A stretch of DNA of 49,560 bases from Pedobacter sp. GTDB lineage: Bacteria; Bacteroidota; Bacteroidia; Sphingobacteriales; Sphingobacteriaceae. Each line of letters starts with the position of its first letter. Within the stretch, counting starts at the first letter, position 1. The stretch is from NCBI GenBank assembly GCA_014377665.1, contig JACMPF010000139.1:1-49560 (forward strand), given 5' to 3'. Shown piece after piece: positions 4,503 to 26,029 of this stretch. The translations under genes and the position numbers were made by a program. Below the pieces are notes generated by a model. It ran no database searches. It was given only the letters and a program-made list of their open reading frames with translations, and was not told the origin of the DNA.

Positions 4503-5564
4503 TTACTTCTTCAGGGTTAGTGATTTGATCAGGTCAGTTTCCTCTTTCTTATAGGGGCTCCCATCAGCTCTAAATATCTCATGAAACCAAAGCTTTGGCT
4601 CAGAACCATCTTTTATTGGCTCATCCCAAGCATATTTGGTGTTTGTCTTACCATCAACCAATCCCCAGTTTATCGCAATAATCTTTTGATCCTTCAACAT
4701 CGGTAGTATAGTTTCAAAAGTGCTTCCGTTTCTTCTTGCCATATATTCAGTGCAAATTAGCGGTCTTTTTGAGGCTTTCAATTCATTAATTCGCTTCTGA
4801 TGTATTGGAGCTTTATCATAACTATGATAGGTTATAACATCGCTGTTAGCTATTTGAAAAACATTCAATTCCTTTAAATTGTCATCCCACACACCTGCGG
4901 ATAATGGTTGTAATGGGTTAATCTCCCTGGCCCAACTGAACACCGCCTTGAGTAGAGGCATAGACTTACTTCCATAGCCAGAGTTGCCTGGCTCATTATA
5001 TAGATCCCAGAGAAGAATTCTTTTGTCGTTACCAAAAGTCTTAAGGATATCCTGAACATAAGCTTTTAAATATCCCCACTGATTGGGGTCATCATGAACT
5101 GCCTGAAGCGGGCTTCTTAACCAACCTGAATTGTGAACACCTGGTTTTGGAGCTGGCTGAACGCCTACAGTACCACTAGCGTTCCAACAATCATCAAAGA
5201 AAACCAATAGTGGCTTAATCTTATGTTTCTCTGCTAAGGCTAAAAAAGTATTAATATTCTTCTTGAATCCTGTGGCATCCTGTTTCCAGGCCAGGTCATG
5301 TAAATAAACCCTTAGGGTTTTCAATCCGATTCCTTCTGCCCAACTCAATTCTTTGTCAATAACAGCAGGATCAAACGTAGCTGACTGCCAGAATTCCAGC
5401 TGATTTATTGCATTAGCAGGCGTATAATTTGCGCCTGCCATCCATGGAAGTTTAGCGTACCAGTCGGTGGCTTTTTTTTCTGTCCATTTTACAGTTTGTG
5501 CAGATGCGCTAAAACTGGTAATTAAGATTAGGACGGCAAATAGAAAGCTTTTAGAATTTATCAT
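4503..5564 (-). CDS. Secreted GH5-like (clan GH-A) glycoside hydrolase
   Basis: With the ATG at 5564 the protein is 353 residues and begins with a clean signal peptide ending ASAQ (cleavage near residue 23), so it is periplasmic or secreted. I prefer this ATG to frames extending to 5633, which would bury the signal peptide. It is a TIM barrel with an acid/base glutamate in LYNEPG (E191) and a probable nucleophile in LICTEYMARR (E273), the arrangement of clan GH-A families such as GH5. Relatives are often labelled 1,4-beta-xylanase or cellulase-family hydrolase, but substrate is not decided by these motifs. It is convergent with rlmH and divergent from trhO, so it is a single-gene unit outside any PUL. 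Confidence 0.85.
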   Translation of the reverse strand: MINSKSFLFAVLILITSFSASAQTVKWTEKKATDWYAKLPWMAGANYTPANAINQLEFWQSATFDPAVIDKELSWAEGIGLKTLRVYLHDLAWKQDATGFKKNINTFLALAEKHKIKPLLVFFDDCWNASGTVGVQPAPKPGVHNSGWLRSPLQAVHDDPNQWGYLKAYVQDILKTFGNDKRILLWDLYNEPGNSGYGSKSMPLLKAVFSWAREINPLQPLSAGVWDDNLKELNVFQIANSDVITYHSYDKAPIHQKRINELKASKRPLICTEYMARRNGSTFETILPMLKDQKIIAINWGLVDGKTNTKYAWDEPIKDGSEPKLWFHEIFRADGSPYKKEETDLIKSLTLKK

Positions 5565-5617
5565 ATCAATTTGGTTAATGGAGCCGATGAAGATAATGAT
5601 TTTTAACTGCAATTTCC

Positions 5618-5625
5618 TATCTTTG
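5618..5625 (+). promoter_or_regulatory. Bacteroidota -7 element for trhO
   Basis: TATCTTTG matches the Bacteroidota sigma -7 consensus TAnnTTTG at every fixed base. No convincing TTTG lies at the usual 19-21 base spacing; only an ATG-like match does. Transcription would start about 7 bases downstream, leaving a leader of roughly 30 bases before the trhO ATG at 5665. Confidence 0.55.
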
Positions 5626-5664
5626 CCTTGCATTAAACGCCATTTGCACCGGTATCAATGAATT

Positions 5665-6606
5665 ATGACCTATCAAACTTTACTCTATTACTGCTATAGC
5701 TATATAGCAGACGCAGAACAATTTGCGGCAGATCACCTAGCTTTCTGTAAGTCCTTAAATCTTGTAGGCCGAATTATTGTGGCTGATGAGGGGCTAAATG
5801 GTACGGTTTCCGGTACTAAGGATGCATGTGAAGCTTACATGGCATACATCAAAGCCGATGAACGCTTTAGAAAGACCGACTTTAAAATAGACGACGTTGA
5901 TGCCCCTTCCTTCATCAAAATGCATTGCAGGTACAAATCTGAGATCGTTCATTCCGGCCTCAGAGATCCGAACATCATCGACCCAAATAAACAGACAGGG
6001 AAACACCTAGAGCCTATAGAGTTTCAAAAAATGATAGATCGGGAAGATGTAGTTATCCTGGACGTTCGTTCTAATTATGAGCACAATCTGGGAAGATTTA
6101 AAAATGCTGTTACATTGGACATAGAGAATTTTAGAGAATTTCCTGAAAAGATCAACGAGCTTGCTAAATACAAAGATAAAAAAGTCCTCACCTATTGTAC
6201 AGGTGGTATAAAGTGTGAAAAAGCATCTGCACTATTACTTCACCATGGATTTAGTGATGTTTATCAGTTACACGGGGGCATCATAAAATACGGAAAAGAG
6301 GCAAAAGGAGAAGATTTTGAAGGCAAGTGTTACGTTTTTGATAATCGAATTGCAGTCGACGTGAACAAAGTCAACCCCTCTGTAGTATCTACCTGTTACA
6401 ATTGTGGAAAGATTACACCAAAAATGATCAACTGTGCAAATCCTGAATGCAATGAGCATGTTACCCAGTGTGATGATTGCTGTAATGACCTCGAGGGATG
6501 CTGCTCAATTAGCTGCACAAGCAATCCTAGAAAGCGTCCTTACGATGGAACAGGTTATTATGTGAAGGTTCCGCAGCAAGTAAAAGCACCTGCTACCGGA
6601 TCCTAA
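5665..6606 (+). CDS. trhO: tRNA uridine-34 hydroxylase TrhO (rhodanese family)
   Basis: TrhO uses oxygen to hydroxylate the wobble uridine of certain tRNAs to 5-hydroxyuridine. The 313-residue protein shows the family order: an N-terminal acylphosphatase-like domain (about 1-95), a rhodanese domain (about 115-215) with the active loop YCTGGIKC (C178 catalytic, C184 second), and a cysteine-rich C-terminal tail with repeated C-x2-C pairs that probably binds zinc. It is cytoplasmic and was formerly named YceA. The ATG at 5665 is preceded by a consensus -7 promoter element. The PUL regulator starts only 3 bases after its stop, so the two may share a transcript although their roles are unrelated. 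Confidence 0.94.
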   Translation: MTYQTLLYYCYSYIADAEQFAADHLAFCKSLNLVGRIIVADEGLNGTVSGTKDACEAYMAYIKADERFRKTDFKIDDVDAPSFIKMHCRYKSEIVHSGLRDPNIIDPNKQTGKHLEPIEFQKMIDREDVVILDVRSNYEHNLGRFKNAVTLDIENFREFPEKINELAKYKDKKVLTYCTGGIKCEKASALLLHHGFSDVYQLHGGIIKYGKEAKGEDFEGKCYVFDNRIAVDVNKVNPSVVSTCYNCGKITPKMINCANPECNEHVTQCDDCCNDLEGCCSISCTSNPRKRPYDGTGYYVKVPQQVKAPATGS

Positions 6607-6609: not shown

Positions 6610-9495
6610 ATGAAAAAAATTAGCAAAGCCTATTTCGTTTTTGTAATTATTACAGCACTCGCAAATGCACTACAGGCTCAGGATATTAAAAGTATAGGTG
6701 TTCCATACGTCCAGAATTATTTGAAGGCAGAATACCTTTCCGGAAATCAAAACTGGGCGGTAGCCAAAGATGACAAAGGAGTAATGTATTTTGCTAACGC
6801 TGAAGGCTTGCTAAGTTATGACGGGGGGTATTGGCAGCTAAATAAGATGCCCAATAAGCAAATTGTCCGATCTGTAGCCACAGGTAATGGCAAAGTTTAT
6901 GTAGGTGCTTTCGGCGAATTTGGATTCTGGTCCATAAAAAAAGGCCGGTTCACGTACACCTCACTAACCAGTCTCATTCCGAATCATAAGGGCATAAAAG
7001 ACGAGATCTGGAAGATATATACCGATCGTAGACGGGTTATTTTTCAGTCGTTCTCCAACATCTATATTTTCCAAAATGGGAAGATAGAGGTAATCAGCGG
7101 ACCAGGGATCTATCTATTCATGCACAAGGTAGGCGACCGTCTTTATGTGGAATCTTTAGGTAGAGGATTATTTGAATTAAAAGCAACTAAACTTATCCCT
7201 TTAAATAACACAGGCAACATCAATCCGTCACAAATACTATCTATACTTCCTTATAAAGATGGTAAACTGTTGATTGGAACAAGTAAAGGCGGACTATATG
7301 TTTATGATGGACAGCAATATGCTATATTTAATTCTCCCGCTAATACTTTTTTAAAAACGCATCAACTAAATAACGGAACCCGTTTGCTTAATAAGTATTA
7401 TGCCTACGGCACCATATTAGATGGGATTATCATCATTGATGAATCAGGAAATATTATTCAGCGTATTAATAAGTCTCATGGATTACAAAATAACACAGTA
7501 CTTAGTCTCTTTACTGATAACACTCAGAATCTTTGGGCTGGGTTAGACAATGGGATTGACAGGATAGAATTGAATTCCCCACTTTATTTTTACTTTGACA
7601 AAAGCGGTCAGTTTGGAACAGTTTACTCTAGTATAACGTATGGAAATTACATCTACTTGGGCACAAATCAAGGCCTCTTTTATAGTCCTTGGCCTGCAGG
7701 AAATGGAAGCTCATTCGATTTTAAATTAATCCCTGGATCACAAGGCCAGGTATGGGACCTCACTGTTCTAAATGGACAACTTCTTTGTGGTCACAATGAC
7801 GGAACATTCAGGATAGCGGGAGCAACTTTTGAGAACATATCATCAATAAAAGGGGCTTGGACAACTAAACCTTTATTAAACAACCCCAATTATTTAGTAC
7901 AAGGAAGCTATACTGGATTAGTTATATTCAAGAAGGATGCCTCAGGAAATTGGATATTTTCGCACCAAATTACAGGTTTTACTGAACCGTCTCGACACGT
8001 AGAGCAAGATATTCGGGGCGACATTTGGGTTAGCCATGCCTATAAAGGACTTTACAAAATCAGACTTAGTGCAGATTTAAAGAAAGCGGTAAGTATAAAA
8101 AGTTATACTACCAAAAACGGATTATCTAGCGAATTCAATATCAACATTTTTAATGTGGAGAATAGAATTGTATTCTCTACAGATAAGGGTTTTATGCTTT
8201 ATGACGAAATCAGCGATAAATTCTCTAAGTACGAAAGTCTGAATAAAAAACTTGGTGGATTTTCTACAGCTAATAAAATCATTAATGCAGGATCCGGTAA
8301 GTATTGGTTTATTAATGATGGGAAGGTAGGCATCGCTGACCTTACAGAGGGTGATAAAATTAAGGTGGATTCGAATCGATTCAGCATGCTTGATGGCAGA
8401 ATGGTTCAGTACTATGAGAATATTAGTAAAATAAGCAATAAAATATACCTGATTAGCGTGGACGATGGTTTTGTGATCTACAATGCTGCTGATACTAGAG
8501 CTTATAATTCTGGAAAGCTTCCCGCGGTGTTAATCAGGAGGGTCGCAGATGTAACAGACACCTACAAACTGATCACGGAAAATATTGACAATAAGACTAT
8601 TCCAGAAATATCTTACACTAGAAACAATATAAGGATAGCCTTTGCCCTACCTTATTACAGGAAGTCAAAAATTAGATTTCAATACTACCTTGATGGGTAC
8701 TCGAAACAGTGGTCAGACTGGACGGAGTCTTCTGAGAAAGACTTTACAAACTTAAACGCGGGATCATACATTTTTAAAGTAAGAGCAAAGATCAATGAAG
8801 GTGCTATAACCAGCATTTCTATTTTTAAATTCAAAATTTTGTCTCCTTTCTATGCCTCTGGAATAGCTATAATCCTTTACATAATTGTTATTGCAACCTC
8901 ATTAGTATTATCTAAAAAGCTTTACGATAAGAAATTGCTCACCGACAAGCAAGTACTTAGACGCAAACTAGAACTAGAAAAAGAAGAGTTTATCAAAAAA
9001 GAAGCTGAAGCCACTGAAAAGCAGATCATCAAGTTGCAAACAGAAAAGCTACAAGGAGAACTGGCTGGCAAAAACCGGGAAATTGCAAACTCTGCTATGA
9101 GTCTCGTTTACAAAAATGAATTGTTGCAAAAACTGAGTCAGGAAATGTATAAGCTGAAAGACTCCAGTGGAAAACTACTTGAGGAGGATCAATTAAGGAA
9201 GATTCAGAAAGTTATCGATGAAGGTATGAATGATGAGCGTGATTGGAATCTTTTTGAAAGCAGTTTTAATGAAGCACATGAAAGTTTCTTTAAAAAATTA
9301 AAGGCCAACCACCCTGATTTGGTACCTAATGATTTAAAGCTCTGTGCCTATTTGCACATGAATATGAGCAGCAAGGAAATGGCTTCACTTTTGAATATTT
9401 CCCTAAGAGGAGTCGAAATTCGACGTTACAGGCTTAGGAAAAAGCTTGATGTACCGCATGACAAAAACCTTGTAGAGTTCCTAATGGAGATATAA
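6610..9495 (+). CDS. SusR-like membrane regulator: beta-propeller, Y_Y_Y, HTH
   Basis: A 961-residue membrane-spanning transcription regulator. A signal peptide (1-23, ending LQAQ) is followed by a periplasmic two-propeller sensor made of repeats with W.G...G/GI motifs (to about 640), a triple-tyrosine domain (about 680-745), one transmembrane helix (about 755-775), a long charged coiled coil (780-850) and a C-terminal LuxR-type helix-turn-helix (about 900-961, including SSKEMASLLNISLRGVEIRR). It has no histidine-kinase or receiver domain, so it differs from classical hybrid two-component PUL regulators and resembles one-component SusR-type proteins. It very probably senses an oligosaccharide in the periplasm and activates the susC-to-GH3 operon 243 bases downstream. 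Confidence 0.9.
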   Translation: MKKISKAYFVFVIITALANALQAQDIKSIGVPYVQNYLKAEYLSGNQNWAVAKDDKGVMYFANAEGLLSYDGGYWQLNKMPNKQIVRSVATGNGKVYVGAFGEFGFWSIKKGRFTYTSLTSLIPNHKGIKDEIWKIYTDRRRVIFQSFSNIYIFQNGKIEVISGPGIYLFMHKVGDRLYVESLGRGLFELKATKLIPLNNTGNINPSQILSILPYKDGKLLIGTSKGGLYVYDGQQYAIFNSPANTFLKTHQLNNGTRLLNKYYAYGTILDGIIIIDESGNIIQRINKSHGLQNNTVLSLFTDNTQNLWAGLDNGIDRIELNSPLYFYFDKSGQFGTVYSSITYGNYIYLGTNQGLFYSPWPAGNGSSFDFKLIPGSQGQVWDLTVLNGQLLCGHNDGTFRIAGATFENISSIKGAWTTKPLLNNPNYLVQGSYTGLVIFKKDASGNWIFSHQITGFTEPSRHVEQDIRGDIWVSHAYKGLYKIRLSADLKKAVSIKSYTTKNGLSSEFNINIFNVENRIVFSTDKGFMLYDEISDKFSKYESLNKKLGGFSTANKIINAGSGKYWFINDGKVGIADLTEGDKIKVDSNRFSMLDGRMVQYYENISKISNKIYLISVDDGFVIYNAADTRAYNSGKLPAVLIRRVADVTDTYKLITENIDNKTIPEISYTRNNIRIAFALPYYRKSKIRFQYYLDGYSKQWSDWTESSEKDFTNLNAGSYIFKVRAKINEGAITSISIFKFKILSPFYASGIAIILYIIVIATSLVLSKKLYDKKLLTDKQVLRRKLELEKEEFIKKEAEATEKQIIKLQTEKLQGELAGKNREIANSAMSLVYKNELLQKLSQEMYKLKDSSGKLLEEDQLRKIQKVIDEGMNDERDWNLFESSFNEAHESFFKKLKANHPDLVPNDLKLCAYLHMNMSSKEMASLLNISLRGVEIRRYRLRKKLDVPHDKNLVEFLMEI

Positions 9496-9738
9496 CACTA
9501 CATCATTACCTCTCATAACTCTTTTCAGTCCATCCTTTTTATGTGTATTAAGCTTAGAGACCAGGTAATAATTATATCTGCGTTGCAGCAACTTAAAAAC
9601 CTGTTATTTACCAAACAAGTTGTGTACAATAAACGTTGACTGAGTACCAAATAATCTGCTGATGTATTAATGTTGAGGCAAGTAATTTGTTTTGATAGAT
9701 TCTCAGCAGGACATTTACACTACTAAATATTAAACAGC
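9496..9738 (+). promoter_or_regulatory. Likely control region of the PUL operon
   Basis: This AT-rich gap between the regulator and susC must contain the PUL promoter. I see no full TTTG/TAnnTTTG pair; TAATTTG near 9681 is one base short of the -7 consensus. Two small palindromes, GTTGCAGCAAC (9582-9592) and TTGTGTACAA further downstream, could bind the regulator, but this is only a guess from symmetry. Confidence 0.35.
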
Positions 9739-12700
9739 ATGAAAAAACATTTTACTCGACTAAGTGTTCTTTCTGTTTTTTTGATCCTATGTATGAACAC
9801 AGCTTTTGCACAAACCATCAATGTGCAGGGTACGGTAACTGATGCTGCCGACAACCTTCCCCTTCCGGGAGTTAGTGTAATTCTAAAAGGAACGAAAACA
9901 GGAACACTTGCAGACGCCTCCGGTAAGTACGTTATTAGCGCACCCGCAACTGGCACATTGGTATTCACTTACATTGGATACACGATTCAGGAAATCCCTG
10001 TAAACAATCGAACTGCAATCAATTTATCGCTATCATCTTCTTCGCAAGAGTTAGACGCAGTTGTAGTAGTTGGTTATGGCACACAAAGGAGGAGCGATCT
10101 TACTGGATCAGTAGCATCGGTGAAAGGTGCAGACATCGCACGTCAACCTGTTCAAACACCTACTCAAGCTATTCAGGGTAAAGTTGCAGGTGTTCAGGTA
10201 ATCGCTTCAGGAGAACCGAACTCATTGCCAACCGTAAGACTTCGTGGTACAGGATCTACACTTTCAGGTTCTAATCCACTTTATGTTGTCGATGGAGTTT
10301 TAACTGATGACATCAGAAACATCAACAACGCAGACATTGTTACAATGGATGTGTTAAAGGATGCATCCGCAACAGCTATTTACGGGATGCGTGCCGCAAA
10401 TGGCGTTATAATCATCACAACAAAAAAAGGTGCTAATGGACCCAACAAAATTGCATATGATGCTAACATTGGAGTTCGTCAGGCAACAAATCTGGTAGAT
10501 ATGGCTGGAGCAAATCAGTATACAGGATACCTTAATGAAGCCAATAAATTCTATGGCAGTGGGACAGATTTGATTCCTTCTTCTAGTTTAACTGGAACAA
10601 GCACAGACTGGTATGATGCTATTCTTCGTACCGCATTACAGCAAAACCATAACCTTTCTCTATCTGGTGGAAGTGAGAAAATCAATTACTTCCTGAGTGC
10701 AGGTTTATTAAGCGATGAAGGTATACAGACTGGAAATAAATATGACCGTTTTACCTTAAGATCGAATAATGATTACATTTTAAGCAGTAAACTGAAACTC
10801 TCATCACTAGTATCATATACGAGAGGTGATGCAAGAGGTGCAAATTTTGGAGCATTTAGCGATTCTTATCGTGCAGCGCCAACAGTTGCAGCAAAATCAG
10901 GAGACCTATATGGCAATACTTCCCTGGCCGGTAACGTAGCAAACCCATTGTTAAATATTGATAAAAACTACAATCGGGCAGTAAACAATAGAGTTCAAGG
11001 TAATTTCGCCTTAGAATATAAACCAATTGATGGTTTAACCCTTAAGTCAGCAATGGGAGTTGATCTGGATTATTTGAAATCTACAGGTTATGCTTACCAA
11101 TACCTTAATGATGCCTCCACCTTCTTAGTAGCTGGCGGAAATCAATCCCAACCAAACAGCAGACTATCATTAACTAAAAATGATGCGGCAAGGTGGATTT
11201 GGGATAATACAGCTACCTACACAAAAGCTTTCGATAAGCACAATTTTACAATCTTGGGAGGTGTTACAGCAGAGCAGTTTAAATTCAACAGCTTGGTAGG
11301 TACTGCAAGAGATGTTGCGCCAAATCAAGACCAGTGGTATCTGAGTTCTGGTAGTGGAGGTTCTCAGTCTGTAGGCAACTCGGGTGATAAATATACCCGC
11401 AACTCCTATTTAACTAGACTAAACTATGGTTATGACAATCGCTACTTATTAACCGCAAGTTTCAGGGCAGACGGTACCTCTAAATATGGCGCAGACAATC
11501 GTTGGGGTTATTTTCCATCAGCCGGTGTGGCATGGAATATCTCTAATGAGAGTTTCATGAAGGAACAAACTGTTTTCAATAACTTAAAATTGAGAGGTAG
11601 TTTTGGTCGTGTAGGTAATGATAACATTGCCTCATCACTTTTTTACTCAATTGCCAGACAAAATATCCCATATTATTTTAATGGACAAGTATTTCAAGGT
11701 ATTGCCTTCGATGAAGTTACCGATCCGAACTTAAAGTGGAAATCACTGATGAGTATGATGCAGGTTTAGACTTTGCGCTTCTTGCGAACAGATTAACGGG
11801 TACATTGGATTATTATAGCAAAAAAACGAATAATTCATTGATCTATGTAGGACTTCCAGGTATTCTTGGAGATACCCAATACCTTACAAATGCTGCAAGC
11901 ATTTCAAATAAAGGTATAGAATTCTCACTGGGTTGGGCAGATCAGATCGGAGACGATTGGAAATATGGATTCTCAGGTAATATAGCGCATAACAAAAATC
12001 TTGTTGAAGGTTTAAACGGTGGTCAGCCTCTTGTTGGTGACCTTGTTGGAAACTTTGCAGTCACTAGAACAGATAATGGCCGTCCAATCGGCAGTTACTT
12101 CCTGCTGGAAAATACAGGCGTATTTCAGAACCAAGCTCAAATTGATGCTTCGGCTCAGAAAGATGCTAGAGCTGGTGACTTGATCTATAAAGATATCAGT
12201 GGACCTGCCGGTGTTCCAGATGGTAAAATTGATGACTATGATAGGGCTTATTTCGGTTCCTATCAACCAAAACTTACCTACGGCTTCAATGGAAATGTTG
12301 GTTATAAAGGTTTGGATTTGAATTTTGGCTTTTATGGAACAGCAGGGAGTAAAATCTACAATGGTAAGAAAGCAGCAAGAGGTACAAACCAGTTAACGGA
12401 TAACATAGAGGCCTCAGTTGCAAAAGATCGCTGGACTCCTAACAACCCAAGTTCAACAGTACCGAGAGCTACTGCAGGCGCGCTAAAGGCTTCAACCTAT
12501 TTCTTAGAGAAAGGTGATTTTTTAAGATTGAATAACCTAACACTTGGTTATACGCTTCCAACAGCTATGCTTGCAAAAGCAAAGATCTCTAATCTACGTT
12601 TATATGTAACTGGACAAAACCTTTTCACCTTGACTGGCTATAGTGGTTTTACCCCAGAGATCCTGACTGCCGCTGGTGACAGAGCTAATCTGAATCAAGG

Positions 12701-12764
12701 TGTGGATGTAAATACTTATCCATCTACAAGGACATTTGCTTTTGGGATTAACCTTGGATTTTAA
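9739..12764 (+). pseudogene. susC: SusC/RagA TonB-dependent receptor, broken by a -1 frameshift
   Basis: Read as one gene, this would encode about 1008 residues, the usual SusC size. The first frame (9739-11769) has a signal peptide (1-24), a carboxypeptidase-like beta-sandwich (about 27-105), a TonB-box-like LDAVVVVGYG, the plug and half the barrel. The second frame (to 12764) carries the rest of the barrel and ends in the expected aromatic residue (GINLGF). The break is at GG 11738-11739: after LKW, one added G restores WEITDEYDAGLDF, matching the conserved SusC 'LKWE...GLDF' segment. The intact protein would form the outer-membrane pore under the SusD lid and import beta-1,2-glucan fragments. 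The break may be a true mutation or a base-calling error in a G-run; the otherwise clean frames favour a very recent or artificial event. Confidence 0.9.
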
Positions 12765-12775
12765 TAATAAAAATC

Positions 12776-14320
12776 ATGAAAAAGATATTTAATATAACAA
12801 CACTGGTACTTCTAGTATCAGCATTATTGGTTGTTTCCTGTAAAAGGAGCTTCCTTGATGTCCCTCCACAAGGTGACCTCACCAGAGAGCAGGCTTTAAT
12901 TGATCCTGTTGCTGCAGATAAATTAGTTGGCGGCGTCTATAACGCGCTATACTTACAAGGAACGGTAGGTCTTAAGTTCGCCATAGTTGGTGATGTAACA
13001 TCCGACAACTCAGATAAGGGATCTGTTGATTCAGATCCTGGATTCGATGGAATATTCCTTGATGCATTCAATTATAATCCTAACACAGGAATCTTCAACG
13101 ACCTATGGAACGACAATTACTTCGGTATTTCAAGAGCAAATAAAGCCCTTGGCATTCTGAACTCAAGTACTATTGATGAAACCACAAAAACTCGCTTAAT
13201 CGGTGAGGTTAGATTTATCAGAGCCTTGCTTTATTTCAACTTGGTAAGAGAGTTTGGTGGTGTGATCAAATTGGTTGATACCCCAGATCCAGCTCAAGCT
13301 AATGGTGATGCCTATCAAACTAAATCAACGGCTGCAGAAATCTACCAAGTAATTGTGGACGACCTAAAATTTGGAGCAGATAATCTTCCCATGAAAGCAG
13401 AAGCTGGTGCAGTTGTTGGCCGTGCCACCAAAGGTGCAGCGCAAGGTCTTCTATCCAAAGTTTACCTTTATCAGGAAAACTGGCAAGGTGCCTATGATAT
13501 GTCTCAGGCTGTAATGAATTCTAACAAATATGATTTAGGCGCTAATTACGCTGAAGTATTTAGAGAAGTAGGCGCTAACAATATCGAATCACTTTTCGAA
13601 GTACAGACCGGAAACTTTGCTACGCAAACTACAGGAGGAATTTCCTGTGATGCAATTAGCAAAAACTATAGCAATTTCCAGGGACCAAGAGGAACTTTTG
13701 GTGCACAGACGGTAAACGGAAAAACTTATACTGGGGGTGACTTAGGATTCGGCTTGAATACACCTTCAGCAAACCTTGCGACTGCTTATGCTGCAAGCGA
13801 TGTTAGAAGAGCAGGAACCATTATTTTTACTAGCGAAACAGCGACTACGACACTTTGGGATGGATTTATACTACCAGCAAGACCAGCGGTTGTGAATGAG
13901 CGTTATAACTATAAAGGATATCATAGTCCTTTCTCTGAATCAAACGGCTGTAATGGCATAAACGATAAAGACAACAAGCCCAAGAATATCAGAATATTAC
14001 GCTTTGCAGAAATCCTGCTAATTAATGCAGAAGCTGCTACACATATTGGTCAGGATGCAACTACTCCATTAAGAAGAGTAAGAAGCAGAGCTGGTTTATT
14101 GACGACTTCAGCATCTGTTTCAGATATCTGGAACGAGAGAAGATTAGAGTTGGCAATGGAAGGTGACAGGTTCTTTGATTTAGTTCGTACTAAACAAGCT
14201 AGCGCTGTGATGAACGCGCTAGGCAAACCATTTATCACCGGTAAACATGAGGTATTTCCTATTCCACAACAACAAAGAGATTTGAGTGGTGGAAGACTTC
14301 TTCAGAATCCAAATTATTAA
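12776..14320 (+). CDS. susD: SusD/RagB surface glycan-binding lipoprotein
   Basis: A 514-residue SusD homologue. The N-terminus is a lipoprotein signal with the lipobox ending VVSC (cysteine near 22), placing it on the outer membrane. Typical SusD features follow: the helical TPR-like core with RANKALGIL and RFIRALLYFNLVREFGG, and a C-terminal WNERRLELAMEGDRFFDLVR block that is diagnostic of the RagB/SusD family. It caps the SusC barrel and binds the polysaccharide. It starts 11 bases after susC and is followed 18 bases later by the LamG lipoprotein, so it belongs to the same operon. It is intact even though its partner is frameshifted. Confidence 0.95.
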   Translation: MKKIFNITTLVLLVSALLVVSCKRSFLDVPPQGDLTREQALIDPVAADKLVGGVYNALYLQGTVGLKFAIVGDVTSDNSDKGSVDSDPGFDGIFLDAFNYNPNTGIFNDLWNDNYFGISRANKALGILNSSTIDETTKTRLIGEVRFIRALLYFNLVREFGGVIKLVDTPDPAQANGDAYQTKSTAAEIYQVIVDDLKFGADNLPMKAEAGAVVGRATKGAAQGLLSKVYLYQENWQGAYDMSQAVMNSNKYDLGANYAEVFREVGANNIESLFEVQTGNFATQTTGGISCDAISKNYSNFQGPRGTFGAQTVNGKTYTGGDLGFGLNTPSANLATAYAASDVRRAGTIIFTSETATTTLWDGFILPARPAVVNERYNYKGYHSPFSESNGCNGINDKDNKPKNIRILRFAEILLINAEAATHIGQDATTPLRRVRSRAGLLTTSASVSDIWNERRLELAMEGDRFFDLVRTKQASAVMNALGKPFITGKHEVFPIPQQQRDLSGGRLLQNPNY

Positions 14321-14338
14321 TCTTAAAAGGTAACTACC

Positions 14339-15187
14339 ATGAACACTATAAAAACTGCCTTTGCGGGCCTTTTAGTTGGAGCTGTATTGCTCTCAGCCTG
14401 CACAAAATCAAATGACGATGACGATTTTCCAGCAGGTGACGTACCACCTACTGCTGGTGGATATACTGCTTCTAGTCAGATATCTCCCGCCAACCTCGTC
14501 GCCTTTTATAATTTTAACGGCGATAGCGTACAAGACTCTATCACTAAAGTAAACGGAACAAATGCCGGCATGACTTTTACCACCGGAATAAAAGGTAAAG
14601 CATTAACCGGAAATCCTGATGCAACTAAAAAGGCATATGCAACAGCATCAGCTAGTGCCGCAGTGCAGGCAATGACCCAATACACTTTAAGCTGCTGGGT
14701 TAATACACCTCAGAATGTTGGTGCCACGGGTATAGTTGGCCTTGGTGATACTAAAAACTTTTGGGGAAATATTAATATTTTCTTCGAAAATGGTGGAACC
14801 ACTACACTTGCACGTTTTAAAACTATCTATGGAGACAATGGGGTTACAAGAGACAACAACATTCAAGATGTAGCTAACGGCTTCAACAATTGGGTTCAGT
14901 ACCTGATCACCTACGATGGTGCTGGTAACTTTAAATCTTATGTTAATGGAACACTGGTAAGAACCAATACCGTTTCTGGAATGACTGCTATACGCTTTAC
15001 TAATGTTGGCCCAATCGTTTTCGGTGCATTGCACTTTAAAACTGTACCAAGCAGCACAACAGGCTCACCTGGTGAAGATTGGGCAGGTTACATCCCTGGT
15101 AAAATTGATGAAGTACGAATTTATAATAAAGCACTAACTTCAACAGAGGTCTCTGCCTTATCAATATTAGAAAGACAGGGAAGATAA
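14339..15187 (+). CDS. LamG-domain surface lipoprotein, probable glycan-binding protein
   Basis: The 282-residue product has a lipoprotein signal (lipobox LLSAC, cysteine near 21) followed at once by an acidic run, SNDDDD, resembling the Bacteroidota lipoprotein export signal that sends proteins to the cell surface. From about residue 50 to 275 it is a concanavalin-like LamG/laminin-G fold, recognised by LVAFYNFNGD at the start and GKIDEVRIYNKALTSTEV at the end. No catalytic pair is evident. Position third in the operon, directly after SusD, is where surface glycan-binding proteins are usually encoded, so I infer it helps capture the polysaccharide. Ligand specificity cannot be read from sequence. 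Confidence 0.83.
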   Translation: MNTIKTAFAGLLVGAVLLSACTKSNDDDDFPAGDVPPTAGGYTASSQISPANLVAFYNFNGDSVQDSITKVNGTNAGMTFTTGIKGKALTGNPDATKKAYATASASAAVQAMTQYTLSCWVNTPQNVGATGIVGLGDTKNFWGNINIFFENGGTTTLARFKTIYGDNGVTRDNNIQDVANGFNNWVQYLITYDGAGNFKSYVNGTLVRTNTVSGMTAIRFTNVGPIVFGALHFKTVPSSTTGSPGEDWAGYIPGKIDEVRIYNKALTSTEVSALSILERQGR

Positions 15188-15190
15188 ATT

Positions 15191-16849
15191 ATGATGAGAT
15201 CAAGGTTCTGCATATTCGCCGCTATTTTTCTTTTTCTTGCTTGTAAAAAAGGAGGAACCGACGCACCTGCAGAACCTTCTTCTTTTAAACAAACGGCTGT
15301 CAGCATCAACAATCAAGCAGCAGTTGCCGGGAACTTCAATAACATATCTCTTAATCCCGTATTAAAAATAATTTTTAATACCAGTATTACTTCCGCTAAT
15401 CTAACAAACGCGCTAAGCTTTACTGACCTGGGAACAGCGGGGAGTGTAGCTTTTACAACAAGTATTGAAAATGGGAATACAATCGTTATCCAACCAACCG
15501 CTGCACTATTAGGCTTTAAAATTTATAATGTTATCGTTTCGAAAACATTGAAATCTGCAGCAGGTGGGAGTTTAGAATCAGAAGTATCCATAACCTTCAA
15601 TACAGGTTTTGACAATAGTGATAAGTTTCCACGACTATCAGATGACGAATTACTCAGCAAAGTTCAGCAACAGACCTTTAAATACTTTTACGACTTCGGT
15701 CACCCCGTAAGTGGCATGGCCAGAGAACGGAATACCTCAGGTAACCTGGTTACCTCAGGGGGAACTGGTTTTGGTGTTATGGCATTGGTTACAGGTGTAA
15801 GCCGTAATTTCATTAGCAAAACAGAAGGGTTGGACCGGGTTAAAAAAATAGTTAACTTTTTGAAAACCGCAGAAAGATTCCATGGTGCTTATCCCCACTG
15901 GATAGATGGGACAACCGGTAAAGTTATTCCATTCAGCACCAAAGATGACGGCGGCGACCTGGTAGAAACTTCACTCCTAATTCAAGGTTTGCTTACAGCC
16001 AGACAGTATTTTAATGGCGCATCAGCAGAAGAAACTACTTTACGAAATGACATTAGTCAAATCTATAACACTGTAGAATGGGACTGGTACAGAAGAGATG
16101 GTGGAAGCGTTCTGTATTGGCATTGGAGTCCGAATTACGGCTGGGATGTGAATTTACCGATAAGAGGATGGAATGAAGCATTAATCACCTATGTTCTGGC
16201 GGCCTCTTCAACTACGCACGCGATACCTAAATCAGTTTATGACAATGGATGGGCTCAAAATGGAACTATGAGAAATGGAAACAGCTATTTTGGGACTCAA
16301 CTCTCTTTGGGAGAACCAAGCGGTGGCCCTTTGTTCTTTTCTCATTATTCCTTCTTAGGCATCAATCCGATAGGCCTGACAGATAGTTATGCGAACTACG
16401 AGACACAAACCAAGGCCCATACCCAGATCAATTACAACCATTGTATAGCGAATCCTAAGAATTATTATGGATATAGTGAAAATTGCTGGGGACTAACTGC
16501 CAGCGATATCCAGAATGGCTACACAGCAAGTTCACCCACTAATGATAGGGGGGTGATTGCACCTACCGCCGCTTTATCTTCCATGCCTTATACTCCTGAC
16601 AATTCAATGAAAGCACTCCGCTTTTTTTACTACAAGTTAGGTGATAAACTATTTAAGGAATATGGTTTTATTGATGCTTTCTCGCTTCAAGACCAATGGT
16701 TTGCCAGCTCAACATTGGCAATTGACCAAGGCCCAATACTAATCATGATTGAAAACTACAGGAGCAAACTGCTTTGGAACTTATTCATGAGTACCCCTGA
16801 AGTCAAAACTGGAATGAGGAGCCTTGGCTTTAATAGTCCGAACTTATAA
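15191..16849 (+). CDS. GH144-type (PF10091) endo-beta-1,2-glucanase, Ig-like N-terminus
   Basis: A 552-residue lipoprotein (lipobox LFLAC, C18). Residues about 35-138 form a bacterial Ig-like domain, and 150-552 the (alpha/alpha)6-barrel of the 'glycoamylase' family PF10091. The catalytic half is marked by TFKYFYDFGHPVSGMARER, HWIDGTTGKVIPF, DDGGDLVET (252-260), WHWSPNYGW and AIDQGPILIMIENYRS. Characterised Bacteroidota members of this type are GH144 enzymes acting on beta-1,2-glucan: endo-glucanases and a sophorose-releasing exo-enzyme. The lipid anchor and accessory domain suggest this copy works on the outer surface as the endo-acting enzyme; that split of roles is inference. It starts 3 bases after the LamG gene and is 4 bases from its paralogue. 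Confidence 0.88.
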   Translation: MMRSRFCIFAAIFLFLACKKGGTDAPAEPSSFKQTAVSINNQAAVAGNFNNISLNPVLKIIFNTSITSANLTNALSFTDLGTAGSVAFTTSIENGNTIVIQPTAALLGFKIYNVIVSKTLKSAAGGSLESEVSITFNTGFDNSDKFPRLSDDELLSKVQQQTFKYFYDFGHPVSGMARERNTSGNLVTSGGTGFGVMALVTGVSRNFISKTEGLDRVKKIVNFLKTAERFHGAYPHWIDGTTGKVIPFSTKDDGGDLVETSLLIQGLLTARQYFNGASAEETTLRNDISQIYNTVEWDWYRRDGGSVLYWHWSPNYGWDVNLPIRGWNEALITYVLAASSTTHAIPKSVYDNGWAQNGTMRNGNSYFGTQLSLGEPSGGPLFFSHYSFLGINPIGLTDSYANYETQTKAHTQINYNHCIANPKNYYGYSENCWGLTASDIQNGYTASSPTNDRGVIAPTAALSSMPYTPDNSMKALRFFYYKLGDKLFKEYGFIDAFSLQDQWFASSTLAIDQGPILIMIENYRSKLLWNLFMSTPEVKTGMRSLGFNSPNL

Positions 16850-16853
16850 CATT

Positions 16854-18194
16854 ATGAAAAAAATCCTACTGCTTTTATTAGTAAATTTTTGCACAGGCAG
16901 CTCATTCTCACAAAATAAAAGTGCATCGATAAAGCCGGAGTTAAAGATTCAAAAGAATTTAACTGATGACCAATTGCTGGACCTTGTTCAAAAGCAAACT
17001 TTCCGTTACTTCTGGGATTTCGCACATCCGGTAAGTGGAATGGCGAGAGAACGGAGCAATGTTGCCTTTGACTATGGAACAGAAGTAGTAACAACAGGAG
17101 GTACTGGATTTGGAGTCATGGCAACGATTGTTGCCGCAGAGCGCAAATGGATTGGGAGAGACACAGCTGCAAGATTTTTATTGAAAATGGTCAAATTTCT
17201 TGGTAAGGCAGATGCATATCATGGGGTTTTTCCGCATTGGCTTAATGGAGGAACAGGAAAGATTATACCTTTCAGCCGCAAAGATGATGGAGCAGATTTA
17301 GTAGAATCTTCCTTTTTATTCCAGGGATTATTAACTGTACGTCAGTACTTTAATGCTGACAATCCTGTAGAAAATGACTTAAGAAACCGAATCAATGGCC
17401 TTTGGTCTGACATAGAGTGGGACTGGTTTACCAGAGGTGGAGAAGAAGTATTATACTGGCATTGGAGTCCAAATAATGACTGGGCTATGAATTTCCCTTT
17501 AAGGGGTTACAATGAATGCCTGATCACATATGTGCTTGCCGCATCGGCAACAAGATACCCGGTAACCGCTTCCGTTTACCACAGAGGTTGGGTACAAAGT
17601 AACTTTTTTCTCAATGGCAAAGAATTCTACGGTCATAAATTACCCTTAGGCTTTGACAATGGAGGGCCCTTGTTCTTCTCGCATTACTCGTTCCTTGGAC
17701 TAGATCCAAGGGGATTAAAAGACAGATATGCAGATTATTGGGAGCAAAACAAAAACCACACACTAATCAATCGAGCATACGTTCTTGCCAATCCTAAAAA
17801 ATTCAAAGGCTATGGCGAAAACAGCTGGGGTTTAACTGCAAGTGATAGCTGGGTTGGCTACGCAGCGCATTCGCCTTCAGAAGATCTCGGTGTGATCACC
17901 CCTACTGCTGCGTTGTCGGCATTCCCCTATACTCCTGAGTATTCAATGCAGGCTTTAAAGCATTTTTACTTTGACCTTGGGGATAAATTATGGACTGAAT
18001 ATGGCTTTATTGATGCCTTCAGTGAAGAAAAAAATTGGTATGCAAAATCACATCTCGCCATTGATCAGGGCCCAATCATTGTGATGATAGAAAATTACAG
18101 GACAGGCTTATTGTGGAAATTGTTTATGAGTAGTCCAGAAATTAAAGATGGCCTTAAGAAATTGGGCTTTGAAGATCCAGCCGCTAAAAAATAA
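16854..18194 (+). CDS. GH144-type (PF10091) periplasmic beta-1,2-glucan hydrolase
   Basis: The ATG at 16854 gives 446 residues with a simple signal peptide (ending SSFSQ) and no lipobox, so it is probably soluble in the periplasm. An earlier start inside the previous gene is rejected because it would bury the signal. The catalytic (alpha/alpha)6-barrel is a diverged paralogue of the upstream gene: it shares TFRYFWDFAHPVSGMARER, DDGADLVES, WHWSPNNDW and AIDQGPIIVMIENYR, but lacks the Ig-like domain. By analogy with known GH144 pairs it may trim oligosaccharides to sophorose after import. Exo- versus endo-action cannot be settled from sequence alone. Confidence 0.87.
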   Translation: MKKILLLLLVNFCTGSSFSQNKSASIKPELKIQKNLTDDQLLDLVQKQTFRYFWDFAHPVSGMARERSNVAFDYGTEVVTTGGTGFGVMATIVAAERKWIGRDTAARFLLKMVKFLGKADAYHGVFPHWLNGGTGKIIPFSRKDDGADLVESSFLFQGLLTVRQYFNADNPVENDLRNRINGLWSDIEWDWFTRGGEEVLYWHWSPNNDWAMNFPLRGYNECLITYVLAASATRYPVTASVYHRGWVQSNFFLNGKEFYGHKLPLGFDNGGPLFFSHYSFLGLDPRGLKDRYADYWEQNKNHTLINRAYVLANPKKFKGYGENSWGLTASDSWVGYAAHSPSEDLGVITPTAALSAFPYTPEYSMQALKHFYFDLGDKLWTEYGFIDAFSEEKNWYAKSHLAIDQGPIIVMIENYRTGLLWKLFMSSPEIKDGLKKLGFEDPAAKK

Positions 18195-18219
18195 CTATAT
18201 TAACTCCAAATTTTAAACC

Positions 18220-18876
18220 ATGTCTAAAAACTTAAAATCCCTGATTGTAATGGTATTGATTTCTATGAGTGCTATTGCGCAGAATAAACCTTTTTGGAAT
18301 GAGGTTCACGAATTTCAAAAGAAAGATAGTATTTCGATGCCAGAAAGTAATGGAATCGTTTTTATTGGGAGCTCATCATTAAGGATGTGGACCGATTTGG
18401 AGCAAACTTTCAAAAGTTACAACGCAATAAACAGAGGATTCGGTGGTTCGGAACTGACTAATGCAAATGATTGGATTAAAGAATTAGTACTGGTATATAA
18501 GCCCAGACAAGTAGTAATATATAGCGGAGAAAATGATATTGCTTCCGGCGCCACTGCAGAGCAGACTTATGATCGTTTTTTAACCTTCTTTACTAACCTA
18601 CGCAAGCATCTTCCTAAAGCAAACATCACCTACATTTCAATGAAATTAAGTCCTTCAAGGTCTAAATTCTCAGACGTAGTATTATCTGCAAATGCAAAGA
18701 TTAAGGATTATATCTCTGGGCAAAAGAATACAGGATATATTGACATTGCCTCAAAAATGCTTGACAGCAACGGTGAAAACAGACCTGAACTTTTCCAAGC
18801 TGACATGCTCCATATGAAACCAGCAGGTTACGAAATATGGACTAAAAAAATTACCCCCTATTTAAAAAAGAAATAA
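18220..18876 (+). CDS. SGNH/GDSL-family periplasmic esterase
   Basis: A 218-residue secreted SGNH hydrolase with a signal peptide ending AIAQ. All four blocks are present: block I FIGSSSLRMW (catalytic serine S51), block II glycine in NRGFGGSEL, block III asparagine in YSGENDIASG (N105), and block V aspartate-histidine in DMLHMKPAGY (D195, H198). The family removes acyl groups from sugars and lipids. Sitting between GH144 and GH3 in one operon, it could strip acyl substituents such as succinyl groups from bacterial cyclic or osmoregulated beta-1,2-glucans before GH3 acts. That substrate is inference from context only. Confidence 0.88.
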   Translation: MSKNLKSLIVMVLISMSAIAQNKPFWNEVHEFQKKDSISMPESNGIVFIGSSSLRMWTDLEQTFKSYNAINRGFGGSELTNANDWIKELVLVYKPRQVVIYSGENDIASGATAEQTYDRFLTFFTNLRKHLPKANITYISMKLSPSRSKFSDVVLSANAKIKDYISGQKNTGYIDIASKMLDSNGENRPELFQADMLHMKPAGYEIWTKKITPYLKKK

Positions 18877-18883
18877 CTGAATT

Positions 18884-21181
18884 ATGAAGTATAAATGCAT
18901 TTTAGGCATGGCAATGTTGCTATGCCTGACTGCGCACGCGCAGAAAAAACCACTCCTCAAGCCTGCTAATGAGAAAATGAATAAATTTGTTGACGGCCTC
19001 TTGATAAAGATGACGCTTGATGAAAAGTTAGGACAACTTAACCTCTTGACGGGAGGAGAGGCTACTACAGGTTCAGTTGTAAGTACCGGCGTTGAAGACA
19101 AAATCAGGAAAGGGCAAGTTGGCGGTATCTTTAGCCTCACTACACCAGCAAGAATAAGGAAGGTGCAAGAAATTGCAGTTACCCAAACCCGTTTAAAAAT
19201 TCCTATGATATTTGGTCAGGATGTTATCCATGGCTATAAAACTACTTTTCCAATACCATTGGGAATGTCTTGTACTTGGGATATGGGCCTTATCCAAAAA
19301 ACTGCACGTATTGCAGCTATAGAAGCGAGTGCTGATGGATTAAACTGGACCTTTTCACCTATGGTAGATATTTCCAGAGATCCAAGATGGGGTAGAATTT
19401 CTGAAGGTTCAGGAGAGGATACCTATCTAGGTTCACAAATAGCAAAAGCGATGGTTATGGGCTATCAGGGCGATGATCTTTCAAAAAACAACACCATCAT
19501 GGCTTGTTTAAAGCACTTTGCATTATACGGAGCAGCAGAAGCGGGAAGAGATTACAATACAACAGATATGAGTCTGCATCGTATGTACAATGAATATTTA
19601 CCTCCATACAAAGCGGCGATAGACGCAGGCGCAGGAAGTGTGATGACTTCTTTCAATGACATTAATGGCGTACCCGCTACTGCCAACAAATGGTTAATGA
19701 CAGATCTGCTGAGAAAGCAATGGGGATTTAAAGGCTTTGTAGTTACCGATTATACTGCCGTAAATGAATTAATTGACCATGGATTGGGTGATTTACAGAC
19801 GGTTTCTGCATTGTCAATCAATGCTGGGGTAGATATGGATATGGTTGGGGAAGGATTTCTTACTACATTAAAAAAATCTTTAGAACAAGGTAAAGTCAAG
19901 CTAACGCAAATTGACCAGGCTTGCCGGTTAATATTAGAGGCAAAATACAAACTGGGATTGTTCGAAGATCCTTTTAGATATTGCAATGAAGAACGGGCAA
20001 AAACCGAAATTCTAAAGCCTGAGCATTTGCAACTCGCCCGAGAAGCAGCAGGACAATCATTTGTTTTGCTAAAAAATGAGGGTCAGGTTCTTCCCTTGCG
20101 TAAAACTGGCACAGTCGCTCTGATTGGGCCATTAGCTAATACTGGCACCAATATGCCCGGTACCTGGAGCGTAAATTCAGACCTTGCAAATACGGTTTCT
20201 TTACTTGATGGCATGAAGGCAACATTAGGAAATCAGGTAAAGATCCTTCACAGTTTTGGAGCAAACCTGATGGCTGATGAAGAATATCAAAAAAGAGCAA
20301 CTATGTTTGGTCGTGATATTCCAAGAGATCCACGATCTGAGGAAGACATTATTAAAGAAGCTGTTGACATTGCAAAGAAATCGGATGTAGTAGTTGCCGC
20401 TTTAGGAGAATCATCTGAAATGACTGGCGAAAGCTCGAGCAGAACGAATCTCGACATCCCTGAAACTCAAAAAAGACTTCTTGAGGCATTACTTAAAACG
20501 GGAAAACCCGTAGTACTTGTGTTATTCTCTGGAAGACCTTTGACTTTGAGTTGGGAGGCTCAGAACGTACCGGCAATACTAAACGTCTGGTTTGGCGGAA
20601 CAGAAACTGCTAAAGCAGTTACGGATGTTTTATTTGGCGATGTTAATCCTTCTGGTAAATTGACGACGACCTTCCCTAAAAATGTTGGTCAGATTCCTCT
20701 GTACTATAGCCATAAGAACACTGGCCGACCTTTAGTTGAAGGTCAATGGTTTTCCAAGTTCAAATCGAACTATCTAGATGTAGATAATGATCCGCTATAT
20801 CCATTCGGATATGGTCTGAGCTACACTACTTACGTCTACAGCGATTTAAAGATGAGTAACACAAGCTTTAGTAAAGGAGGTTCAGTTACCGCTTCAATCG
20901 TAGTTAAAAATACCGGATCGAGAGAAGGAAGAGAAATAGTCCAACTTTATGTACAGGATTTGGTAGGTTCTGAAACAAGACCTGTCAAGGAGTTAAAAGG
21001 ATTTCAGAAAATCAGATTGGTTCCCGGAGAGCAGAAAACGGTAACTTTTAAGATCAGTTCAGATGACTTAAGGTTCTATAATGCAGCCTTGAAATATGAT
21101 TCTGAACCCGGCGATTTCAAAATATTTATTGGTGGAAATTCAAAGGATGTGATGGAAAGCTCCTTTAAACTTAAAAACTAG
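18884..21181 (+). CDS. bglX: GH3 family beta-glucosidase (periplasmic)
   Basis: A 765-residue, full-length GH3 enzyme with a signal peptide ending AHAQ. The N-terminal barrel contains the KHF motif (210-212) and the nucleophile aspartate D289 in VVTDY; the usual third residue W is replaced by Y. The second domain holds the acid/base candidate E516 in GESSSRTNLDIP, and a fibronectin-III-like domain closes the protein (from about 660). It hydrolyses terminal beta-glucose from oligosaccharides. As last gene of the PUL it most likely cleaves sophorose and short beta-1,2-glucooligosaccharides to glucose. It starts 7 bases after the SGNH gene. Confidence 0.93.
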   Translation: MKYKCILGMAMLLCLTAHAQKKPLLKPANEKMNKFVDGLLIKMTLDEKLGQLNLLTGGEATTGSVVSTGVEDKIRKGQVGGIFSLTTPARIRKVQEIAVTQTRLKIPMIFGQDVIHGYKTTFPIPLGMSCTWDMGLIQKTARIAAIEASADGLNWTFSPMVDISRDPRWGRISEGSGEDTYLGSQIAKAMVMGYQGDDLSKNNTIMACLKHFALYGAAEAGRDYNTTDMSLHRMYNEYLPPYKAAIDAGAGSVMTSFNDINGVPATANKWLMTDLLRKQWGFKGFVVTDYTAVNELIDHGLGDLQTVSALSINAGVDMDMVGEGFLTTLKKSLEQGKVKLTQIDQACRLILEAKYKLGLFEDPFRYCNEERAKTEILKPEHLQLAREAAGQSFVLLKNEGQVLPLRKTGTVALIGPLANTGTNMPGTWSVNSDLANTVSLLDGMKATLGNQVKILHSFGANLMADEEYQKRATMFGRDIPRDPRSEEDIIKEAVDIAKKSDVVVAALGESSEMTGESSSRTNLDIPETQKRLLEALLKTGKPVVLVLFSGRPLTLSWEAQNVPAILNVWFGGTETAKAVTDVLFGDVNPSGKLTTTFPKNVGQIPLYYSHKNTGRPLVEGQWFSKFKSNYLDVDNDPLYPFGYGLSYTTYVYSDLKMSNTSFSKGGSVTASIVVKNTGSREGREIVQLYVQDLVGSETRPVKELKGFQKIRLVPGEQKTVTFKISSDDLRFYNAALKYDSEPGDFKIFIGGNSKDVMESSFKLKN

Positions 21182-21234: not shown

Positions 21235-21960
21235 TTACTCAGCCATATTGTGGTAAACGGCCTGAACATCGTCATCCTCTTCCAATTTATCAATTAATTT
21301 AAAGACGTCAACAGCTTGTTCTTCTGTAATAGGCATAGTAGAAAGTGAGATTCTTTCCAATTTTGCACTTTTCATTTCAACACCAAGTTCTTCTAAAGCC
21401 TTTTGCATTTTTCCAAAATCTTCGAAAGCTGTTTGAACTACCGAGATATCTGTTCCGTCTTCGTCAGCTTCCAAATACAATTCTTCAAGACCGGCATCGA
21501 TCAGTTCAAATTCTAATTCTTCCAGGTCTTTTTCTCCAGGGAGAAACCTAAAGATCGATTTTCGATTAAAAATAAAATCCAGTGATCCGGTTTTACCTAG
21601 CGCACCGCCTGTCTTATTGAAATAACTGCGTACGTTCGCTACCGTTCTGTTTGTATTATCGGTAGCTGTTTCAATAAGGATAGCTACACCATGCGAGGCA
21701 TAACCCTCGTAAACATGCTCTTCGTAACCGTTTTCATCCTTATTAGATGCACGTTTGATGGCCGCATCTACAGTATGCTTTGGCATATTAACAGCCTTTG
21801 AATTTTGAATGGCCGTACGCAGGCGGGAATTAGTGTCAGGGCTAGGTCCTCCATCTTTAACGGCCATGACAATCTCTTTACCTATCCTTGTAAACTGAAC
21901 CGCCATTTTGGCCCAGCGCTTAAATTTACGTTCTTTTCTGAATTCGAATGCTCTTCCCAT
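21235..21960 (-). CDS. YebC/PmpR family regulator or translation factor
   Basis: A 241-residue YebC-family protein, complete and typical. It begins MGRAFEFRKERKFKRWAKMA, a common variant of the family's 'GHSKW' opening, followed by GGPSPDTNSRLRTAIQNSKAVNMP and the conserved YEGYASHGVAILIE. Members have been described as DNA-binding regulators and, more recently, as factors relieving ribosome stalling at proline-rich sites. The sequence does not say which applies here. It is cytoplasmic and forms a single-gene unit on the minus strand, convergent with the PUL. Confidence 0.93.
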   Translation of the reverse strand: MGRAFEFRKERKFKRWAKMAVQFTRIGKEIVMAVKDGGPSPDTNSRLRTAIQNSKAVNMPKHTVDAAIKRASNKDENGYEEHVYEGYASHGVAILIETATDNTNRTVANVRSYFNKTGGALGKTGSLDFIFNRKSIFRFLPGEKDLEELEFELIDAGLEELYLEADEDGTDISVVQTAFEDFGKMQKALEELGVEMKSAKLERISLSTMPITEEQAVDVFKLIDKLEEDDDVQAVYHNMAE

Positions 21961-23057: not shown

Positions 23058-23376
23058 GTCGGCAACAATTTATTTGGTATGTAGAAAACATTTGAAAAAC
23101 AAAATTAGTTTACAAGTAAAACACATTTCAGTACAGAGATATTTTGAAAGCAGTTTGTTACAAGCTGATAAGGTCAAAAGCCAACCAAAGCTATTTAAAG
23201 GACGATAGCATGGCGGATTCGCGATCAGACCATTTCCTTTCTTGGCAAACCCCGCCTTCTACTGAGCCTTTTCGCCTTGCTGAATTCCTTTCAATATCTC
23301 AACGACGAAAGTCAGCCTTGGTCAAAGTCCCGGCAATAAATTACACCTGAAAGGTTGTTTTCTATGGCCCCATTTC

Positions 23377-23416
23377 TGCTCCTGAGCACTAAATAAATTG
23401 AGTTCGATCAGGAGCA
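23377..23416. repeat. Inverted repeat, 9-bp arms
   Basis: TGCTCCTGA (23377-23385) and TCAGGAGCA (23408-23416) are perfect inverted repeats separated by 22 bases. There is no T-run, so it is not a standard terminator. It could be a protein-binding site, an RNA hairpin or a relic of a mobile-element end. Confidence 0.5.
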
Positions 23417-23771: not shown

Positions 23772-23791
23772 AAATAGGTAACCTTAATTTA

Positions 23792-24952: not shown

Positions 24953-24957
24953 AAAGC

Positions 24958-26013: not shown

Positions 26014-26029
26014 TTAGAAATACACACAA

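Follow-up and report, generated by a model that had tools for sequence, protein, structure and literature searches.

The analysed stretch of DNA (49,560 nucleotides; hereafter the window) is the whole of contig C254 in a 3.0-Mb, 296-contig genome bin that is 80.6% complete, and by protein similarity its closest named relatives are Pedobacter and other Sphingobacteriaceae. The + strand carries a predicted glycan-utilization locus (PUL) at 6610-21181. It is flanked upstream by a gene for a TrhO-like tRNA uridine hydroxylase (5665..6606, + strand; NF001133, 279.6 bits, cut-off 170), which recurs beside such loci but lies outside the PUL function, and downstream by another recurring neighbour on the − strand, encoding a YebC/TACO1 protein (21235..21960; PF01709). 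Between them are encoded, in this order, a regulator (6610..9495; PF07495, PF07494); SusC in two parts, an N-terminal one of 676 aa (9739..11769) and a C-terminal one of 342 aa in another frame (11736..12764); a SusD-type outer-membrane lipoprotein (12776..14320; PF14322, PF07980); a LamG/ConA-like lipoprotein, which is a candidate surface glycan-binding protein (14339..15187; PF13385); GH144a, a lipoprotein with a Big_5 domain followed by a GH144 domain (15191..16849; PF13205; PF10091, E 3.9e-72); GH144b, a secreted GH144 enzyme that has no lipobox and is predicted to be periplasmic (16854..18194; PF10091, E 1e-77); an SGNH hydrolase, a predicted carbohydrate O-acyl esterase (18220..18876; PF13472); and a GH3 beta-glucosidase of the BglX type (18884..21181; NF011678, 948.5 bits, cut-off 666). 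The ORF list bears out the genes, order, strand and coordinates given in the initial annotation, and Pfam and NCBIfam uphold its family calls. With susC and susD adjacent to each other and co-directional with glycan-active genes, the locus is of the Sus type. By computation, the same gene order was found again in many genomes, and both PF10091 matches are far above chance.

The gaps from SusC to GH3 measure 11, 18, 3, 4, 25 and 7 bases, the start of GH144b being set at the ATG at 16854 (an alternative TTG at 16824 would overlap GH144a). The spacing of 3-26 bases reported earlier for the operon is thus found from SusC to GH3 (3-25 bases) and does not extend to the regulator. Because the regulator begins 3 bases past the trhO-like gene and ends 243 bases before susC, we count it as adjoining the operon and not as a demonstrated member of it.

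Several other gene groups of the window lie outside the locus. Upstream, the minus strand encodes a GH1 family protein (535-1848) and a secreted GH5-like protein (4503-5633; Pfam match just below cut-off). A gene run at 23768-31786 encodes proteins of the Gfo/Idh/MocA, xylose-isomerase-like, cytochrome c, 3-keto-disaccharide hydrolase (28036-28734) and nucleoside-symporter/MFS families, and is suggestive of a 3-keto-glycoside pathway. In one of the compared loci, L025 (16871-20428), genes for Gluconate_2-dh3 and a GMC oxidoreductase stand ahead of a Gfo/Idh gene, and another, L127 (408-4158), contains ORFs of similar sizes in the same order. At the corresponding place of the window (23069-23767 being the stretch concerned) the Gfo/Idh gene is retained (88-90% identical), and tblastn found no match in the window for the Gluconate_2-dh3 and GMC oxidoreductase genes of L025.

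The locus had been called complete; as assembled it is incomplete, because susC is split into two frames. The fragments overlap at 11736-11769 and match TIGR04056 at 1-657 and 656-981, the C-terminal one (291.9 bits) staying below the whole-protein cut-off because it is partial. The N-terminal part is homologous up to approximately residue 668, the remainder being out of frame. On the intact SusC of Pedobacter foliorum (L056) the two fragments abut (1-672 and 671-1002), as they do, end to end, on the single SusC of L030, L064 and L127. The locus therefore holds no intact SusC reading frame, possibly through a sequence error; unless the shift is such an error, import via this SusC would fail. 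Among the SusC-like ORFs lying clear of the locus ends in 84 annotated loci (n = 76), 66 reach at least 900 aa, and each of the ten shorter ones starts or stops within 1 kb of the locus end. Orthologous loci that are intact occur, for example, in Pedobacter nyackensis DSM 19625 and P. foliorum LMG 31463. No repeat or slippery run that might serve phase variation or programmed frameshifting was noted at susC on reading the sequence by eye. TIGR04056 has 34 matches in the bin. They include five more full-length SusC genes, all open, and one that the end of contig C38 truncates; the remaining matches are partial. The contrast between the shifted frame and these five open genes would suit a decaying locus, in which a mutation has cost the locus its susC and the other genes are being lost in turn. 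However, the remaining operon genes are open, the GH144 enzymes retain their residues, and the shift is just as likely to come from a single-base error in a draft bin; we regard decay as possible but somewhat doubtful.

Membership of GH144a and GH144b in family GH144 was established computationally, by PF10091 and by catalytic-domain similarity. In phmmer searches both enzymes matched the PDB entries 4gl3, CpSGL (5gzh, 5gzk), 3eu8, 4qt9, BDI_3064 (5z06) and XcSGL (8xul), with E of about 1e-165 and 1e-144 against CpSGL. All of the CpSGL residues D135, D139, E142, E211 and D400 and the clan residues F268 and Y330, for which functional roles are given in PMC12102758, are kept in both. We aligned 226 GH144 domains (220 from the loci and the window, 6 from the PDB), after removal of identical copies, of domains shorter than 330 residues and of five window pieces present a second time. 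Residues D139, E142, E211, F268 and Y330 are invariant in 85/85 rows of clade A, 111/111 of clade B, 15/15 of the CpSGL clade and 11/11 of the BDI-like group, these and the following counts leaving out four clade-less rows (4gl3, 8xul and two 8xul-like). At the position of D135, D is found in 83/85, 111/111, 15/15 and 8/11 rows of the same groups, and at that of D400 in 85/85, 110/111 (one gap), 15/15 and 7/11, with N in four BDI-like rows (BDI_3064, L034, L036 and L084).

For a careful tree we took 62 of the 226 rows, namely every CpSGL-clade and BDI-like row, randomly sampled rows of A and B, and some chosen ones. It supports clade A (99/98), clade B (99/98) and the CpSGL clade (100/100), leaves the BDI-like group unsupported (26/80) and fixes no order among the clades. 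GH144a belongs to clade A and GH144b to clade B, and we know of no characterised enzyme in either. The initial annotation had proposed such a tree as a check and had named a position of both enzymes outside GH144 as counting against it: both lie inside the family, and neither groups with a characterised endo- or exo-enzyme. Since each stands in its own clade without a characterised member, neither is assigned an endo or exo mode, which, like activity, is a matter of prediction here. An apparent closeness of clade A to BDI_3064 in a FastTree phylogeny, considered as an endo/exo clue, was dropped, as it was not kept in the careful tree. The window enzymes share the GH144 domain and key residues with CpSGL, the endo-beta-1,2-glucanase of Chitinophaga pinensis (5GZH, 5GZK), but fall in separate clades, and GH144a has the extra Big_5 domain. 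They share the domain and the E211 equivalent with BDI_3064, the exo-acting GH144 enzyme of Parabacteroides distasonis (5Z06), which has N at the D400 position, whereas both window enzymes have D. The structure model of GH144a has a mean pLDDT of 52. In a viral collection, 85 stretches fitted an alignment-derived pattern, and none of them encodes a GH144 relative.

The GH3 protein has full-length N, C and Fn3 domains (PF00933, PF01915, PF14310), scores above the equivalog cut-off and matches PDB entries 3u48 (E 0), 5xxl (E 0), which we take to be BT_3567, and 4zo6 (E 2e-169). It thus shows full-length homology with BT_3567 (5XXL) and Lin1840 (4ZO6), GH3 enzymes for beta-1,2-glucooligosaccharides, although its top PDB match is JMB19063 (3u48), and its linkage preference is predicted. 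According to PMC12369401, BT_3567 and Lin1840 are associated with beta-1,2-glucan and split sophorose and laminaribiose at comparable rates.

In the SGNH hydrolase, the Ser, Gly, Asn and His of blocks I, II, III and V are invariant in 11 aligned sequences (it was also aligned among 13), and its model (pLDDT 89.5) has its closest folds in BDI_0976, GDSL proteins, sialate O-acetylesterases and PAF acetylhydrolases. OPGs and the cyclic beta-1,2-glucan of Brucella are known to carry O-succinyl groups (PMC9558356), and we infer that the SGNH protein de-esterifies the glucan. The publications that a search on OPGs and SGNH listed, judged by title and the start of the abstract, dealt with acyltransferases or eukaryotic enzymes. 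Against the PDB, the LamG protein had only two hits, both weak (E about 0.002) and both to the lectin-like portion of a toxin chain; we read them as reflecting a generic ConA-like fold.

SusD, LamG and GH144a have lipobox cysteines in their sequences, and plain signal peptides were seen by eye in GH144b, SGNH and GH3. An acidic run follows the lipobox cysteine of LamG; it resembles, without matching, the lipoprotein export signals described in PMC5080379. This distribution fits a cut at the cell surface by GH144a and finishing in the periplasm. By a crude rule applied to rows of which many are cut, lipobox-like N-termini occur in 36/90 rows of clade A, 6/117 of clade B, 9/12 of the CpSGL clade, 0/10 of the BDI-like group and 0/5 others; a surface GH144a is therefore not a demonstrated general trait of clade A.

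Across 136 GH144 loci, the window included, GH144 genes less than 400 bases apart were scored as pairs; some genomes are counted twice, and the counts are biased, as it was GH144b similarity that led to most of the loci. Ninety adjacent pairs were recorded, with A followed by B in 67, A by a CpSGL-clade enzyme in 10, B by B in 7, B by a BDI-like enzyme in 2, a BDI-like enzyme by B in 2 and other combinations in 2. Lone GH144 genes belong to B (34), A (9), the BDI-like group (3) and the CpSGL clade (1). GH144b thus occupies the slot held in other genomes by a CpSGL-type enzyme and, as GH144a precedes either one or the other, the gene set is tied to beta-1,2-glucan. Matches to GH144b are present in 106/151 genomes of the family and 98/296 of the phylum (window bin included). 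This kind of PUL, whose recurrence was established computationally, is real and widespread.

PULs with GH144 have already been named as abundant in Bacteroidetes and assigned to beta-1,2-glucan (Lapebie et al., 2019; PMC6499787). Compared with those described there, the window shares a PUL with GH144 but has SGNH and LamG genes and a split susC, and is without the sulfatase of the marine form. A GH144 PUL of Bacteroides xylanisolvens encodes, according to PMC11739564, a beta-1,2-galactosidase inactive on beta-1,2-glucooligosaccharides; hence not every sugar of a substrate can be read from the presence of GH144 in its PUL. In the window, the GH144 domains with the CpSGL residues, the related GH3 and the position of GH144b in the CpSGL-clade slot together give good support, at the level of sequence, to beta-1,2-glucan as the substrate class, and this part of the initial annotation is very likely right.

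The accessory genes vary among relatives. In the best 80 named loci, many of them cut by contig ends and with genes counted anywhere in the locus, we found SusC in 65, SusD in 67, the regulator in 34, GH3 in 41, LamG in 28, SGNH in 11, trhO in 11 and yebC in 16. In Pedobacter and Mucilaginibacter the locus often lies between trhO and yebC (both flanks in 8 of these loci, at least one in 19). A GH43-CBM32 cluster is represented in 35/84 loci and a GH30 cluster in 9/84 (Pfam was run on a single member per cluster). In a genome of the same family (L125, 12047-18728) a pair of GH144a and a CpSGL-clade enzyme is followed by a GH43-CBM32-like gene and a sulfatase, resembling the marine form noted in PMC6499787. 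Such genes in sister loci hint that some loci see a decorated or mixed substrate. The window PUL might likewise import a polymer of which beta-1,2-glucan is only the backbone or a part, with SGNH (and, in sister loci, GH43, GH30 and sulfatase) acting on the rest. The SGNH gene of the window and of 11 of those 80 loci, the two clusters, the sulfatase of L125 and the succinyl esters reported for OPGs and Brucella cyclic beta-1,2-glucan (PMC9558356) speak for this reading; however, Pfam found no GH43, GH30 or sulfatase in the window operon, and of the 19 loci flanked by trhO or yebC only 4 have SGNH. We consider it rather unlikely and retain beta-1,2-glucan as the preferred substrate.

The initial annotation further presented the glucans of other bacteria as the food, which is not supported as stated. 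The bin itself contains a homologue of cyclic beta-1,2-glucan synthase. On the 7.2-kb contig C291, a coding sequence truncated by the end of the contig specifies 2345 residues or more, with GH94 (527 bits), PF10091 and a GT2-like match below cut-off; we infer that the protein belongs to GT84. The cyclisation domain of this protein can be aligned to TiCGS (8wy1, 382 bits) as well as to two Agrobacterium-type synthase chains, 8rf9 and 8rf0. With the numbering offset set from the two histidines, TiCGS residues E1356, E1400, E1442, H1536 and H1537, whose roles are described in PMC10834661, are conserved. MdoG/OpgG had no match in the 80.6% complete bin. The locus could accordingly recycle or remodel the bacterium's own cyclic beta-1,2-glucan, made by this synthase homologue, a reading favoured by its GT2-like, PF10091 and GH94 parts, by the TiCGS-aligned residues and by the missing MdoG/OpgG match. 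Against it, the homologue occurs in only 6/151 family genomes (window bin included), compared with 106/151 for GH144b, so that the PUL does not need the synthase; the SusC/SusD architecture points to outside substrates; and C291, a draft-bin contig that differs slightly in composition (GC 0.417 versus 0.403; distance 0.199, compared with 0.185 or less for window pieces), could be foreign. Recycling of an own glucan is, in our judgement, highly improbable, and a substrate from outside is preferred.

The SusC/SusD pair has a different affiliation from the rest of the locus. It groups with that of Ferruginibacter (L030; 63%) and then with those of P. foliorum and L041, L064 and L093 (Chitinophagales or Chitinophagaceae), and separately from the pair found in the majority of Pedobacter loci; those of L065 and L091, also Pedobacter, sit elsewhere on long branches. 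Constraining the window pair into a clade with eight Pedobacter-type or same-genus rows was rejected (AU p 1e-20), and the same constraint for the P. foliorum pair gave p 3e-4; the test used 28 of 61 rows, L065 and L091 left out, and the groups were named after the tree had been seen. The regulator, GH144b, GH3 and GH144a have their closest relatives among Pedobacter or same-genus rows (best identity 67, 84, 81 and 71%, respectively), and for trhO and yebC the identity to Pedobacter loci is as high as 88 and 95%; LamG (best identity 42%) has no supported set. On these sequence comparisons, SusC/SusD (9739-14320) belongs to a lineage mainly of Chitinophagaceae, while the regulator, enzymes and flanks are Pedobacter-like. 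Both transfer and old differential loss are possible origins of the mismatch. It is conceivable, if unlikely, that the periplasmic SGNH strips O-acyl groups (e.g. succinyl) before GH144b and GH3 act, the locus being a PUL variant for decorated osmoregulated glucans of other Gram-negatives, and that the exchanged SusC/SusD fits another form of the polymer (cyclic, linear or substituted).

Control also differs among the loci. The regulator of the window has a propeller repeat, a Y_Y_Y domain, one transmembrane stretch recognized by eye and, presumably, a C-terminal HTH, where NF053779 matches weakly and far below cut-off. Pfam reports only Reg_prop and Y_Y_Y, and no histidine kinase or receiver domain, so the protein does not qualify as an HTCS. 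In L030 (379-5655) and L101 (2963-8180) the genes at the head of the PUL encode instead an ECF sigma factor, FecR and a SusC that matches STN (above cut-off in L030, just below it in L101). SusC of the window and of P. foliorum gave no STN match, and a Y_Y_Y regulator takes that slot; one enzyme set is thus found under two control schemes.

Taken together, the locus is very probably a PUL for beta-1,2-glucan in a Pedobacter-like member of the Sphingobacteriaceae. At the surface, the LamG lipoprotein and SusD would bind beta-1,2-glucan and lipoprotein GH144a would cut it, and SusC/SusD would import the pieces. In the periplasm GH144b would cut them further, SGNH would take off O-acyl substituents, and GH3 would act on sophorose and short chains to free glucose. 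The Y_Y_Y-type regulator would sense a product and switch the operon on from the 243-base gap before susC.

To what is in print on such PULs, this analysis adds the mismatch in lineage between SusC/SusD and the regulator, enzymes and flanks; it suggests that the transporter can be swapped as a pair without a change in the enzymes, the regulator or the chromosomal place. The split gene indicates that calls of a complete PUL should include a check of the susC frame. The locus also directs attention to two widespread, uncharacterised GH144 clades, and their fixed tandem order beside CpSGL-type enzymes makes an assay of both worthwhile. In many Gram-negative bacteria beta-1,2-glucans serve as symbiosis and virulence factors, and these interactions could be shaped by Bacteroidota that feed on such polymers.
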